A model generated the notes under the pieces. That model searched no databases. It was not told the origin of the DNA and saw only the letters and a program-made list of their open reading frames with translations. From contig NZ_JAEQBW010000003.1 of the NCBI RefSeq assembly GCF_016679925.1, forward strand, positions 248,001 to 312,000: a stretch of 64,000 nucleotides of DNA. The letters are read 5' to 3'. Below are positions 26,204 to 30,012 of this stretch, one piece after another. Every line of letters starts with the position of its first letter. Within the stretch, counting starts at the first letter, position 1. Source of the stretch: Marivirga aurantiaca. Lineage in GTDB: Bacteria > Bacteroidota > Bacteroidia > Cytophagales > Cyclobacteriaceae. A program made the position numbers and the translations under genes.

Positions 26204-26437
26204 ATGAGCACCTCAAGCAAATCTTTATTCTCGTTTCTGGCTGGTGTTGCCACAACAGCCGCAGCAAGTGTTTTTTTTAAAACTGAAAATGGCAGAAAAG
26301 TTTGTCAATCTTTGGCAAACACTTTAAAAAACCTTAAAACTAAATCCAATTCAAGTGCCGGTATAGATTGGATTAATGAATTAGGTGATTCTGAAATGGA
26401 CATTGCCAGAAAATTTAAATCAAAACTTAAGTTTTAA
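26204..26437 (+). CDS. Small YtxH-like protein
   Basis: A 77-aa protein with an N-terminal hydrophobic segment rich in Ala and Val (about 8-25: FSFLAGVATTAAASVFF), followed by KTENGRKV and a basic amphipathic tail. This is the pattern of YtxH-domain proteins, whose short anchors end in a T-x-x-G-K/R motif. Their function is poorly defined; some are linked to stress. It is the only plus-strand gene inside the aro cluster: divergent from aroA with 72 bp between starts, and overlapping the convergent aroB end by 18 bp. The frame, ATG and A-rich upstream region support a real gene. Confidence 0.65.
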   Translation: MSTSSKSLFSFLAGVATTAAASVFFKTENGRKVCQSLANTLKNLKTKSNSSAGIDWINELGDSEMDIARKFKSKLKF

Positions 26438-27448
26438 GGTATGGTCAAGGGCTTTCAGGATTAGTACTTCATCCACTGAAATATTAAAAGTTGCTTTTCC
26501 CGGCTTCTCCAATAAGCTCATAAATACCTCACCACTTTGATTCTTCTTATCTTGTTTGCAAAGCCTCAAAATCTTAGGATATGAGGTTTTCTCGATTTCC
26601 GGAATTTTATAGGCTGCCCTAATATATTCTTCAATTTCCTCCTGATCCGATTTCCCAAGCATTCCCTTTTTGTTGGATAAGTAGGCTTCTGCAACCATTC
26701 CCCATGCGACTGCTTCCCCATGCAATAGTTCTTGCTGGTTTGTTAAACAATAAGATTCGATGGCATGGCCAATAGTATGTCCAAAATTAAGTATTTTTCT
26801 CAATCCCTTTTCTGTAGGATCTGCTTTCACCACCTTTTCTTTGATCGTCACGGAATGCTTTATCAATTCTACATTGATGTTACTATACCCCGCTTCTTTC
26901 AGAGCCTTCCAGTGATCCATATCAGCGATCAGCCCATGCTTAAGCATTTCTGCAAAGCCTGAAAGCAATTGATTATCGGGCAGTGTATGATGGAACACCG
27001 TATCTATCATCACACATAGAGGTTCATAGAATAAGCCAATATGATTTTTGTACCCTTCAAAATCCACACCTGTTTTCCCACCAACGCTGGCATCCACTTG
27101 TGAAAGCAAGGTTGTGGGGATATTGATGAAATTGATCCCGCGTTTATAGGTTCCGGCACAAAACCCACCCATATCAGTAATCACTCCACCACCCAGATTG
27201 ATTAATAAAGCATTTCTATCCGCTTCATGTTTTGTAAGTATTTCCCAAATAAGTGTACAAGTTGCCAAAGTCTTATTTGTTTCCCCATTTGGTACACTTA
27301 TTAATACATGAGTCCCTAAATAAGGCTTTAGTAAAGAATAGCAATGTTTTTCAGTTTCGTTATCAACCAATACGAATAATTGTGTATGCTTGATTTTTGA
27401 TAAAACCGCTTTAATCTCTTTAATCTCGCTAAAATATAGTTCACTCAT
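26420..27448 (-). CDS. aroB: 3-dehydroquinate synthase
   Basis: AroB converts DAHP to 3-dehydroquinate, the second shikimate-pathway step, using NAD and a divalent metal. The 342-aa sequence has the diagnostic ALLINLGGGVITDMGGF, the motif IPTTLLSQVDASVGGKTG and the metal-ligand region with GFAEMLKHGLI and NFGHTIGHAIE. Its start overlaps the stop of the DAHP synthase-chorismate mutase gene by four bases (ATGA), so both are on one transcript controlled by the leader at 28674. The length is slightly under the usual 350-370 aa but all core motifs are intact. It converges with the small YtxH-like gene. Confidence 0.95.
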   Translation of the reverse strand: MSELYFSEIKEIKAVLSKIKHTQLFVLVDNETEKHCYSLLKPYLGTHVLISVPNGETNKTLATCTLIWEILTKHEADRNALLINLGGGVITDMGGFCAGTYKRGINFINIPTTLLSQVDASVGGKTGVDFEGYKNHIGLFYEPLCVMIDTVFHHTLPDNQLLSGFAEMLKHGLIADMDHWKALKEAGYSNINVELIKHSVTIKEKVVKADPTEKGLRKILNFGHTIGHAIESYCLTNQQELLHGEAVAWGMVAEAYLSNKKGMLGKSDQEEIEEYIRAAYKIPEIEKTSYPKILRLCKQDKKNQSGEVFMSLLEKPGKATFNISVDEVLILKALDHTLKLKF

Positions 27449-28545
27449 ATAGTTTTTGCTACTTCTTTTTCCAAGGCCATTTGTTTTTCCTGTCGTTTGA
27501 TGGATTCATCATGTATGGCCACCAAAAAACTTTTCATAAATTTTTCGCTCATGTCTTTTTGTTTGCCCAAGTCAATTCTGTTTTGCAAAACATTTTTCCA
27601 GCGGTCACCCTGGTAAACAGCTAACTGATGGGCTTTTTTGTAAGCTCCCACCTGGTCGATCACATGAAACCTATCAGACAATAAATCTATTAATTTTTGG
27701 TCAATATGATCTATGGCATTTCGCATTTCTTTTAAGTTTGATGGGATTTCAGCTTCCAGATCAATTTTCTCCTTAAATGAGATTTCTTTTAAAATGGTCA
27801 GGAGTTGTTCAGGGGTTACCTGCTGTCTGGCATCACTCCATGCTTCCTTAGGATTGGGGTGTGTTTCAATCATCAATCCGTCCATCCCGAAGTTCAAAGC
27901 ACGCTGGGAAATATCCTTGATCATTTCCCATTTGCCACCGATATGGCTGGGGTCATTAATAATCTCAATATCAGGTAATTCCAGTTTTAACTGCATGGCC
28001 AGGTTCCAGTTGGGCTTGTTTCTGTAGATCTTATCATAGGGATCGGCAAAGCCCCTGTGGATGGCTGCTAGTTTGTTGAGGCCGGCATCATGCATTCTTT
28101 CCAGTGCGCCTACCCAAAGTGCCAAATCCGGATTGATTGGGTTTTTAACCATGACGGGGATGTCAACACCTCTGAGGGAGTCCGCTATTTCCTGTACAGA
28201 GAATGGATTAACAGTTGTTCGGGCACCAATCCATAGTACATCAATCTGATGTTTCAGGGCAGCTTCCACATGGGCCGCATTGGCGACTTCAATGCAAACA
28301 GGGATTTTCAATCGATTCCTGACCTCTTGTAGCCATGGCAAAGCGGTATCACCAAGTCCTTCGAAATTACCCGGCCGGGTACGAGGTTTCCAGACCCCAC
28401 CACGGAACATGCCTATTTGTGGCTCCCTTTCAAAGCTGTTGCAGAGGTCGTCCAGTTGTTTTTCTGTTTCCACACTACAGGGACCGGCTATTACCACATG
28501 TTTCCCCAGGCCCAGGCCCCAATCTTTCATTTTTAGCGTTTTCAT
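27445..28545 (-). CDS. DAHP synthase-chorismate mutase fusion, leader-controlled copy
   Basis: This 366-aa bifunctional enzyme has an N-terminal type I-beta DAHP synthase (about 10-260), with VIAGPCSVE, WKPRTRPGNFEG, LWIGARTTVNPF, VKNPINPD, IHRGF and DPSHIGG. The C-terminal AroQ-type chorismate mutase (about 275-365) shows MRNAIDHIDQKLIDLLSDR and QNRIDLGKQKD. It starts the shikimate pathway and also makes prephenate towards Phe and Tyr, so end-product control is expected. I place the start at the ATG at 28545; a longer frame would add 25 basic residues that overlap the attenuator's 3' side. aroB follows with a four-base overlap. Confidence 0.93.
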   Translation of the reverse strand: MKTLKMKDWGLGLGKHVVIAGPCSVETEKQLDDLCNSFEREPQIGMFRGGVWKPRTRPGNFEGLGDTALPWLQEVRNRLKIPVCIEVANAAHVEAALKHQIDVLWIGARTTVNPFSVQEIADSLRGVDIPVMVKNPINPDLALWVGALERMHDAGLNKLAAIHRGFADPYDKIYRNKPNWNLAMQLKLELPDIEIINDPSHIGGKWEMIKDISQRALNFGMDGLMIETHPNPKEAWSDARQQVTPEQLLTILKEISFKEKIDLEAEIPSNLKEMRNAIDHIDQKLIDLLSDRFHVIDQVGAYKKAHQLAVYQGDRWKNVLQNRIDLGKQKDMSEKFMKSFLVAIHDESIKRQEKQMALEKEVAKTI

Positions 28546-28618
28546 TTTTTGATGTTTTAAGTTCTGTTTCAATTTTAAAAGAGGCATCCTCCTTCGCTTT
28601 TTGGGCTTCGGAGAATAC

Positions 28619-28650
28619 AAAAAAAAAGCCCGACTCTTTCGAATCGGGCT
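28619..28650 (-). terminator. Attenuator terminator upstream of DAHP synthase gene
   Basis: On the minus strand AGCCCGATTC pairs with GAGTCGGGCT around a GAAA loop (10 bp, one G-T pair), followed by nine Ts. It stands between the leader peptide stop at 28674 and the gene start at 28545. The leader segment GAGTCGG (about 28693-28699) can instead pair with the terminator's 5' arm CCGATTC, giving the alternative antiterminator. Confidence 0.87.
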
Positions 28651-28673
28651 TGTGTATGATTTAAATTATTTAA

Positions 28674-28754
28674 TTACATAGTAATACAAGGGCCGACTCG
28701 CAGAAGCGGGATAAAATAAAAGTAAAAATAAAATCGTCCTTGTAGATTTAACAT
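28674..28754 (-). CDS. Phe/Tyr attenuator leader peptide (26 aa)
   Basis: On the minus strand an ATG at 28754 opens a 26-codon frame ending in TAA at 28674-28676. Residues 8-14 are FYFYFYF, encoded TTT TAT TTT TAC TTT TAT TTT: seven consecutive codons for the end products of the downstream enzyme. The terminator 5' arm begins 23 nt after the stop. A ribosome stalled on the run would leave GAGTCGG free to form the antiterminator; one reaching the stop would cover it and let the terminator form. This is the layout of classical pheA-type attenuators. A candidate promoter with CAAA/TAAATGTA (plus-strand reading, 28785 and 28759) would start the RNA almost at the ATG; that part is weak. Confidence 0.85.
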   Translation of the reverse strand: MLNLQGRFYFYFYFIPLLRVGPCITM

Positions 28755-28941
28755 GCCTTAAATGTAATCACTAGTTTTTTAAAACAAAATAAAATTCTTG
28801 TTTTTTTAATTGCGCTATTGAGATTGCATGGTTTTCCTTAGCTTTCCAAACTTTTGCAGCCTATCATTCTTTCGACATAGAAATGAGAGGTTTGGGATAG
28901 CAGAGGAAATGACCTAAGAGAATCGCCTATAATAGCTGCCA

Positions 28942-30012
28942 TTATTCACCCTCATGGTAAATATCCGTTTGAATCCTGATAGACTCATCGTGTATTGCCT
29001 GGTATAAGGTTTTCACAAATTCAGGATTTAGGTTAAGTTGATTGCCCCACTCAGGTCGGTTCTGCAAAATAGTGTTCCAGCGCTCTAACTGGAAAATAGC
29101 CACGTTTTTATCTTTTTTATAAGTACCTACTTTTTTTACTAATTCCAATCTTCTTGCCAGTACTTCCAGTAATTCCTTATCGGTTTCATCAATCTCATCT
29201 CTGAAATGATCCAGTTCATTTTGAAATTTTTCACTGGGAAAGGTCAAATCCCTAATTTGCAATTTATCCAACAACACTCTCAGGTTGGCAGGAGTCAGCT
29301 GTTGAGCAGCATCACTCCAGGCTGCAGCCGGATCTCTGTGGGATTCTATGATCAAGCCATCGTACCTCAGGTTCATCGCTTTTTGGGCAATTTCAAATAG
29401 AAGGTCTCTTTTGCCTGCAATATGGCTTGGGTCACAAATCAATAACAATTCCGGGTACCTGGATTTCAGGTCGATGGGGATTTGCCATAGCGGAATATTG
29501 CGGTAAATACTTTCCTGATAAGTAGAAAAACCTCTGTGAATGGCTCCTAATTTTGTGATGCCGGCCTGATGAAATCTTTCCAAAGCTCCAATCCATAAGT
29601 TTAAATCGGGATTAATGGGGTTTTTTACAAATACAGTTTTATCGGTTGCATTTTTCAGGGCATCGGCTATTTCCTGTACATTGAATGGATTTACAGTGGT
29701 GCGGGCGCCAACCCATAAGATATCAATATCATTTTCCAGCGCCATTTCCACATGCTGAGCGGAAGCTACTTCAATAGCAAATTGAACCTTAAAGATTTCT
29801 TTGGCTTTCTTAATCCATGGAAAAGCTTTTTTGCCTACACCTTCAAAACTGTTGGGGCGGGTTCTGGGTTTCCATATTCCTGCCCTGATGGTGGTAATGC
29901 CCTGATTCACCAGCCCTTCCACTGTTTCCATCATTTGTTCTTCAGTTTCTGCACTGCATGGACCTGCTATGATCCACGGCTTTTCACCCTCGTACCACTG
30001 TTTGATTTCCAT
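28942..30012 (-). CDS. DAHP synthase-chorismate mutase fusion, second copy
   Basis: A 356-aa paralogue of the gene at 27445 with the same two domains: DAHP synthase (about 8-255; IIAGPCSAETEEQ, WKPRTRPNSFEG, LWVGARTTVNPF, DPSHIAGKRD) and chorismate mutase (about 265-350; FRDEIDETDKELLEVLARR). It differs clearly in sequence from its neighbour, so the duplication is old. It lies upstream of the leader of the other copy, about 190 bp away, and no aromatic-codon leader or attenuator is visible before its own ATG. The two copies may therefore be a regulated and a basal isoenzyme, or be sensitive to different end products. That division is inference. Confidence 0.92.
   Translation of the reverse strand: MEIKQWYEGEKPWIIAGPCSAETEEQMMETVEGLVNQGITTIRAGIWKPRTRPNSFEGVGKKAFPWIKKAKEIFKVQFAIEVASAQHVEMALENDIDILWVGARTTVNPFNVQEIADALKNATDKTVFVKNPINPDLNLWIGALERFHQAGITKLGAIHRGFSTYQESIYRNIPLWQIPIDLKSRYPELLLICDPSHIAGKRDLLFEIAQKAMNLRYDGLIIESHRDPAAAWSDAAQQLTPANLRVLLDKLQIRDLTFPSEKFQNELDHFRDEIDETDKELLEVLARRLELVKKVGTYKKDKNVAIFQLERWNTILQNRPEWGNQLNLNPEFVKTLYQAIHDESIRIQTDIYHEGE

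Follow-up and report, generated by a model that had tools for sequence, protein, structure and literature searches.

The question raised by this locus is whether a short reading frame in front of an operon for aromatic amino acid synthesis acts as a sensor of phenylalanine and tyrosine. The window, i.e., the whole stretch of 64,000 nucleotides analysed here, comes from a genome that groups with Marivirga, and the initial annotation described in it a complete Phe/Tyr transcription attenuator before the genes for a DAHP synthase-chorismate mutase and AroB. In our view this operon is very probably under classical transcription attenuation mediated by the ribosome, with charged tRNA-Phe, and probably tRNA-Tyr as well, as the signal.

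The leader peptide gene, its terminator and their distribution

The following elements make up the locus:

28942–30012, minus strand: second DAHP synthase-chorismate mutase paralogue, upstream, 47% identical to the regulated gene
28674–28754, minus strand: leader peptide gene, 26 codons and TAA, product MLNLQGRFYFYFYFIPLLRVGPCITM; the A of the ATG is at 28754
28713–28733, minus strand: control codons FYFYFYF, codons 8–14, from the translation and the alignment of the genus leaders
28676–28674, minus strand: stop codon TAA of the leader, read from the sequence
28619–28651, minus strand: intrinsic terminator with an 11-pair stem (28651–28626), a GAAA loop and a T run (28627–28619)
27445–28545, minus strand: DAHP synthase-chorismate mutase gene, taken as the regulated gene, 366 aa from the ATG at 28545
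26420–27448, minus strand: aroB, 3-dehydroquinate synthase (TIGR01357, 335 bits, curated cut-off 305)

The 26-codon frame with FYFYFYF at residues 8–14 is present as initially annotated, and its coordinates hold. Its stop had been placed 23 nt before a terminator of about 10 bp followed by nine Ts; the terminator scan gives a distance of 22–23 nt, a stem of 11 pairs, six of them G-C (about 10 pairs when counted from AGCCC), and nine T at 28627–28619. The terminator is conserved in the alignment of the 10 genus sequences. The proposed gene identities were borne out too: the first protein is a fusion of the Pfam domains DAHP_synth_1 (DAHP synthetase I) and CM_2 (type II chorismate mutase), the second scores above the TIGR01357 cut-off, and the two genes overlap by 4 nt. 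Genus orthologues of the DAHP synthase-chorismate mutase begin at the position of the ATG at 28545. The stretch 28545–28620 leaves the start ambiguous, however, since a further in-frame ATG, at 28587, abuts AAGGAGG and is also possible. Before the second paralogue, a scan of the same kind over 900 nt at each of 10 genus loci found no F/Y leader with a terminator.

A separate feature of the upstream regions is a near-perfect palindrome, GCTAACGAACGTTAGAT (GCTAACAAACGTTAGAT in two of them), lying roughly 95 nt before the leader ATG in eight of the 10 genus loci (L005–L012). It looks like a putative repressor operator; no copy was seen in L013 or in the 450 nt inspected for the window (L001).

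Conserved leader frames with Phe/Tyr runs and covarying stems were the two signs that the initial annotation proposed to look for in relatives. The first was found throughout: an F/Y-rich leader precedes the gene in 10 out of 10 genus genomes searched and in all 47 further family loci examined. The run is FYFYFYF in seven genus leaders (L005–L010 and L001, that of the window), FYFYFYY in L011 and L012 and FYFYFFYY in L013. The family search covered 148 genomes, 130 of them with a DAHP synthase match at the cut-off, and the 47 loci are the best-matching ones outside the genus, with proteins 52–62% identical (G123, which falls in this range, was left out; L091 and L092 carry leaders but are outside the set of 57). 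Leaders were picked as the most F/Y-rich short frame in the right stretch. The scan found a terminator behind all 57 (10 genus and 47 family leaders); in L066 there is no stop before it and the frame runs through the terminator. A typical family leader is MLIAAFAYFTFFYFYFRPQGRIGAAYCLVKN, and a common family run is YFTFFYFYF. A count of codon positions over 37 family runs was set aside because the runs had been picked by their F/Y pattern.

Beyond these close orthologues the distribution is uneven. A leader with a terminator occurs at six of 20 family loci whose best DAHP synthase-chorismate mutase is at most 51% identical to that of the window, and at one of 20 loci sampled from the remaining families of the order. 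In the rest of the class and phylum, 14 of 20 loci have a leader rich in F/Y (sometimes with W) and a terminator up to 7 kb upstream of the DAHP synthase-chorismate mutase gene, nine of them at about 4 kb and five at about 2 kb from where the fetched stretch ends. These distances fit an operon of the type pheA-aminotransferase-tyrA-DAHP synthase-chorismate mutase, the gene names being inferred from the layout.

In other families, Trp codons are mixed into some of the F/Y leaders that precede aromatic genes (e.g., FSFYYFWY and FFFYFWY; L167, L188 and others of L184–L203). Their composition suggests that they may sense all three aromatic amino acids.

Alternative pairings of the leader RNA

The anatomy and conservation described above are accompanied by alternative pairings that are present both in the sequence and in the energies of the RNA. 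They involve the following segments:

28732–28744, minus strand: region 1, 5' half of the 1:2 hairpin (anti-antiterminator), from folds and the consensus fold of 10 genus sequences
28685–28701, minus strand: region 2, GCGAGTCGGCCCTTGTA, partner of region 1 or region 3 in the folds
28699–28693, minus strand: GAGTCGG segment in the leader, complementary to CCGATTC of the terminator 5' arm
28640–28653, minus strand: region 3, ACAAG and CCGATTCG, antiterminator partner of region 2 with 8 + 5 pairs

Region 1 lies immediately before and at the first control codon and in the predicted folds of free RNA pairs with region 2. The pairing of GAGTCGG with the 5' arm of the terminator, already annotated, was recovered, and CCGATTC belongs both to region 3 and to this arm, so that pairing of region 2 with the whole of region 3 would prevent the terminator. 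The antiterminator is extended by a CTTGT/ACAAG pairing that was absent from the initial annotation. The fold of the leader RNA has a z value of −4.26, with none of 200 shuffles equally stable, and the 2:3 pairing of the window reaches −17.3 kcal/mol, a value equalled by 0 of 500 shuffles. When the two pairings were compared with 500 shuffles of the post-run segment of each leader, the 2:3 pairing fell within the best 5% in 55 of the 57 leaders (the exceptions being L006 and L012); the 1:2 pairing was better than shuffles in 32 of 57 only, and is clear in the genus consensus fold.

Covariation, the second proposed sign, was found in part. Two-sided changes affect one of 26 predicted pairs in the genus and three of 20 in the family, where the helices hardly vary. 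Since covariation is uninformative at this level while the helices vary greatly between families, we used a re-pairing test, in which the fit of each leader to its own terminator is compared with its fit to the terminators of others. The 15 divergent leaders, from outside the group of close orthologues, were chosen by aromatic run and terminator only. The true pairs sum to −241.0 kcal/mol, which was reached by none of 20,000 re-pairings. Taken singly, seven of the 15 leaders rank first of 28, L184 ranks 6th and L189 16th. Covariation is thus slight within the genus and family and clear between families.

These results bear on two other readings of the locus. The co-directional paralogue ends 187 nt before the leader, so the terminator might merely end transcription coming from upstream, or give constitutive partial termination, with the reading frame as a passenger. 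Such a reading leaves aside the conserved frame with its F/Y run, the second RNA segment complementary to the terminator arm and the outcome of the re-pairing test; the leader codons of a sister element, moreover, follow the content of its operon (see below), and we regard a passenger frame as very improbable. Also very improbable is that the main product of the leader would be a small RNA or peptide acting in trans. A trans role is reported for Sinorhizobium peTrpL (PMC7298713), and the terminated transcript would be about 136 nt long; the peptide outside the run, however, varies from lineage to lineage, whereas the pairing of the RNA is conserved.

Predicted transcription start and proposed mechanism

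Two promoter elements, which the initial annotation did not contain, lie upstream of the leader:

28785–28788, minus strand: TTTG, −33 element of the Bacteroidota promoter, at −34 to −31 from the predicted start
28759–28766, minus strand: TACATTTA, −7 element, 5/6 match to the consensus TAnnTTTG, at −12 to −5 from the leader ATG

Promoters of F. psychrophilum are described in passages of PMC9723704 as carrying TAnnTTTG at −12 to −5; those of B. fragilis also have TTTG near −33, a motif that according to excerpts of PMC7366714 was not found in F. johnsoniae. The −7 box of the window has A in place of the final G. In 51 of 57 leaders, a box with at least a 5/6 match stands exactly at −12 to −5 relative to the A of the ATG (strict match in 44), and TTTG starts at −36 to −31 in 43 of 57. 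A strict box at this distance precedes only three of the 2455 ATGs of the window, and Shine-Dalgarno-like 4-mers occur before only two of the 57 leader ATGs. From the placement of the box, the TTTG, the rarity of such boxes among the window ATGs and the few Shine-Dalgarno-like sites, we predict a leaderless mRNA, whose start should be at the leader AUG, within a base or two.

Translation of the leader from a longer 5' untranslated region would agree with the share of leaderless messages in F. psychrophilum, which at 5.5% are a small minority in passages of PMC9723704. The imperfect box of the window points the same way, as do more distant families with such leaders, where the nearest good box, where seen, is farther from the ATG (e.g., 16 nt). 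The fixed spacing of the box in the family, the frequent TTTG, the scarcity of strict boxes before other ATGs and that of Shine-Dalgarno-like sites all argue against a longer 5' region, and we consider it unlikely.

The start of transcription, the stalling, the read-through and the amino acids that count are what we infer for the leaderless attenuator, as follows. Transcription would begin at the leader AUG or one or two bases away from it, as the promoter placement suggests, so that a ribosome would load on the 5' end of the nascent leader RNA. With Phe and Tyr plentiful, it would pass FYFYFYF and reach the stop; the terminator would then form and transcription would end near 28619. With Phe or Tyr short, it would stall on the first codons of the run and cover region 1, region 2 would pair with region 3, and RNA polymerase would read into the enzyme genes. 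With no translation, both the 1:2 hairpin and the terminator would form.

This scheme was modelled by equilibrium folding of the RNA with a 30-nt ribosome footprint masked. With the A site on codon 8, 9, 10 or 11 of the window leader, the probability of the antiterminator is 0.82–0.86; with no ribosome, or with the ribosome on codons 12–15 or at the stop, that of the terminator is 0.97–0.98. In the model, then, the window RNA switches as attenuation requires. Nine of the 10 genus leaders go from little terminator on codons 8–11 to much on codons 13–15; L013 shows no switch, and the free RNAs of L007 and L010 reach only 0.46 and 0.57 terminator. A ribosome on codons 2–7 also largely antiterminates in the nine switching leaders, so the model fixes the point of release and does not single out the run.

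By the equilibrium criterion applied to full-length RNA, 11 of the 57 family leaders switch, of which seven belong to the genus, and the total over all 72 leaders is 16. One of the 11, L066, is an artefact in which the ribosome sits on the terminator. In most family leaders outside the genus the terminator wins at equilibrium and the model fails to discriminate; the switch there, if real, would therefore be kinetic. The RNA of 56 family leaders (L066 omitted) was also folded without the 3' arm of the terminator; compared with a ribosome at the stop, one in the run left the 5' arm more occupied in 34 and less occupied in none, and among 15 wider leaders the same comparison gave 11 higher and four lower values. 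The free window RNA without the 3' arm also pairs 2:3 (0.97), and GAGTCGG stays largely uncovered in the model when the ribosome has reached the stop.

Amino acids probably sensed, related leaders and known systems

In C. glutamicum, which provides the nearest characterised case, passages of PMC4046766 describe an F-Y-F leader, aroR, before the DAHP synthase gene aroF, and its attenuation is described in excerpts of a review (PMC11802643) as responding to limitation of Phe, not of Tyr. By this precedent the attenuator of the window might sense Phe only, its Tyr codons being carried along or just slowing the ribosome; F is also more numerous than Y in the common family run. In the window, however, F and Y strictly alternate, and modelled antitermination is about equal on codons 8, 9, 10 and 11. 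Because the run begins next to region 1, stalling on its first Phe codon and stalling on its first Tyr codon are predicted to have the same effect. Furthermore, a Tyr-rich attenuator elsewhere in this genome precedes a gene of the phenylalanine hydroxylase type, an enzyme that would produce Tyr. Sensing of Phe alone seems to us rather unlikely, and we predict, as the likelier of the two outcomes, a response to Tyr as well as to Phe.

This second attenuator came from a covariance model of the genus element run over the 148 family genomes, 68 of which were hit at E values up to 0.01:

L246:1048–1185 (G000:C33:245547–245684), in the same genome outside the window: second attenuator, covariance-model match, leader MKTTHNHYYYYHLFLTGIGNGMVMH

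It precedes a gene for a biopterin-dependent aromatic amino acid hydroxylase (phenylalanine-hydroxylase type), behind which follow a glutamine amidotransferase match, to judge by its position hisH, and matches to His_biosynth for two proteins that we take to be hisA and hisF. In sister species whose hydroxylase has no his genes behind it, the leaders read THNTYYYYYQ and KRNTYYYYYL. Eight of 11 extra model matches precede a hydroxylase. Three extra matches (L254–L256) do not look like such leaders and were rejected.

The hydroxylase loci were then surveyed in 73 of the 96 family genomes with a hydroxylase, the other 23 being outside the sample. The scan, which counted Y, F, H and W alike, found a leader rich in these residues with a terminator at 25 of the 73 loci and none at the other 48. 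It gave 0 of 73 hits in reverse complements, where the choice of strand was heuristic, and one of 73 in shuffles. L249 and L250 were dropped from this comparison as duplicates; in the leader scans as a whole, hits within coding sequence or of implausible shape (L166, L230 and extra frames in L190) were set aside by eye. His codons occur inside the aromatic cluster in 15 of 16 leaders with his genes downstream and in one of nine without (Fisher p = 7e-5, inflated by relatedness of the genomes); counted by genus the figures are 10 of 10 and one of six (p = 0.0014, less affected), the absence of his genes referring to the fetched downstream stretch only. Since the leader His codons track the his genes behind the hydroxylase, the comparison supports codon-specific stalling as the probable working principle in these genomes.

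Other amino acid operons were also inspected. Two Trp leaders in series, each with WWW, precede trpE at all nine genus loci examined (L212–L220); in the genome of the window (L219, G000:C30 about 504930–505236) each is followed by a terminator. TACATTTG starts 13 nt ahead of the first ATG. Before hisG (L128–L136) there is a His-rich leader ending in HAVHVFHHSS[F/L] or a close variant at nine of nine loci, with TACATTTG (TACTTTTG in L136) starting 14–15 nt ahead of the ATG. No clear intrinsic terminator was found at these nine loci, and a CATTCCTC...GAGGAAT hairpin spans the stop. At ilvD, six of the eight fetched loci were examined, and none of the six showed a convincingly shaped leader with four consecutive I/L/V residues.

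We think it likely that leader-peptide attenuation is a general, essentially leaderless device in Cyclobacteriaceae, whose control codons are rewritten as operons rearrange: F/Y runs before DAHP synthase-chorismate mutase, Tyr before phenylalanine hydroxylase, Tyr/His before hydroxylase operons with his genes, and two WWW leaders in series before trpE. The F-Y run of the window would then be an OR sensor of two amino acids, and the hydroxylase elements would be composite sensors of two unrelated ones. The pattern provides a rule by which small regulators that are so far unannotated can be found in the group and annotated, and the hydroxylase operons, where leader codons follow the genes behind, are a natural experiment that can show how sensors get rewired. 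Attenuation requires a ribosome close behind RNA polymerase. Flavobacteria are described in passages of PMC9723704 as being without Shine-Dalgarno sites, and these two points together make the conserved, apparently leaderless set a natural assay for transcription-translation coupling and leaderless initiation in Bacteroidota.

How does the attenuator relate to known systems? No Rfam family, T-box and riboswitches included, was found at gathering score in the whole window, nor was any in six related loci. At permissive settings the number of weak matches was 29, and Phe_leader, Thr_leader and Trp_leader were included. The match to Phe_leader (RF01859), the family of E. coli pheL-pheA, extends over the whole model with an E value of 0.012; at 27.2 bits against a gathering score of 55, membership was rejected. 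The pheL-pheA system has a leader rich in Phe codons, a terminator and a competing antiterminator, and the window shares the Phe-rich run, the terminator and the competing antiterminator. It differs from pheL-pheA in a run that mixes F and Y, in the lack of a Shine-Dalgarno-like site before the leader and in its target, which is the first enzyme of the pathway and not pheA.

With C. glutamicum aroR the locus shares an F/Y leader before a DAHP synthase gene. The aroR leader belongs to Actinobacteria and has a run of three residues, whereas the window has a run of seven, promoter motifs of the Bacteroidota type and a DAHP synthase fused to chorismate mutase whose gene overlaps aroB; convergence seems likelier than common descent. 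Attenuators of C. glutamicum, that of aroR included, were reportedly called leaderless by Neshat and colleagues in 2014. The three-hairpin attenuator of C. glutamicum ilvBNC is discussed as a leaderless message in excerpts of PMC11857589; it concerns branched-chain amino acids in Actinobacteria, and has in common with the window leaderless attenuation, which is predicted here.

The initial annotation regarded classical peptide attenuation as described mostly outside Bacteroidota. This kind of control is indeed little documented in the phylum, but passages of PMC9723704 report strong clues for leader-peptide attenuation before amino acid operons of F. psychrophilum, and conserved structured 5' elements without Rfam hits before pheA and hisG in Flavobacteriaceae. 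These elements are from the same phylum, differ from the window in operon and family, and are presented in a section that contains neither leader sequences nor codon runs nor alternative pairings. In the open-access literature, to the extent that its texts were accessible and with subscription journals mostly outside the search, we found neither a paper on a Phe/Tyr attenuator for Marivirga or its family nor an attenuator of phenylalanine hydroxylase; passages of PMC4833913, PMC1262725, PMC10272879 and PMC5784534 contained nothing decisive. The attenuator of the window is thus a genuine, conserved and classical one, of a kind known from E. coli pheL and C. glutamicum aroR and from the clues in Flavobacterium. 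What is new is a further member of an apparently systematic set, with a mixed Phe/Tyr run and an apparently leaderless start.
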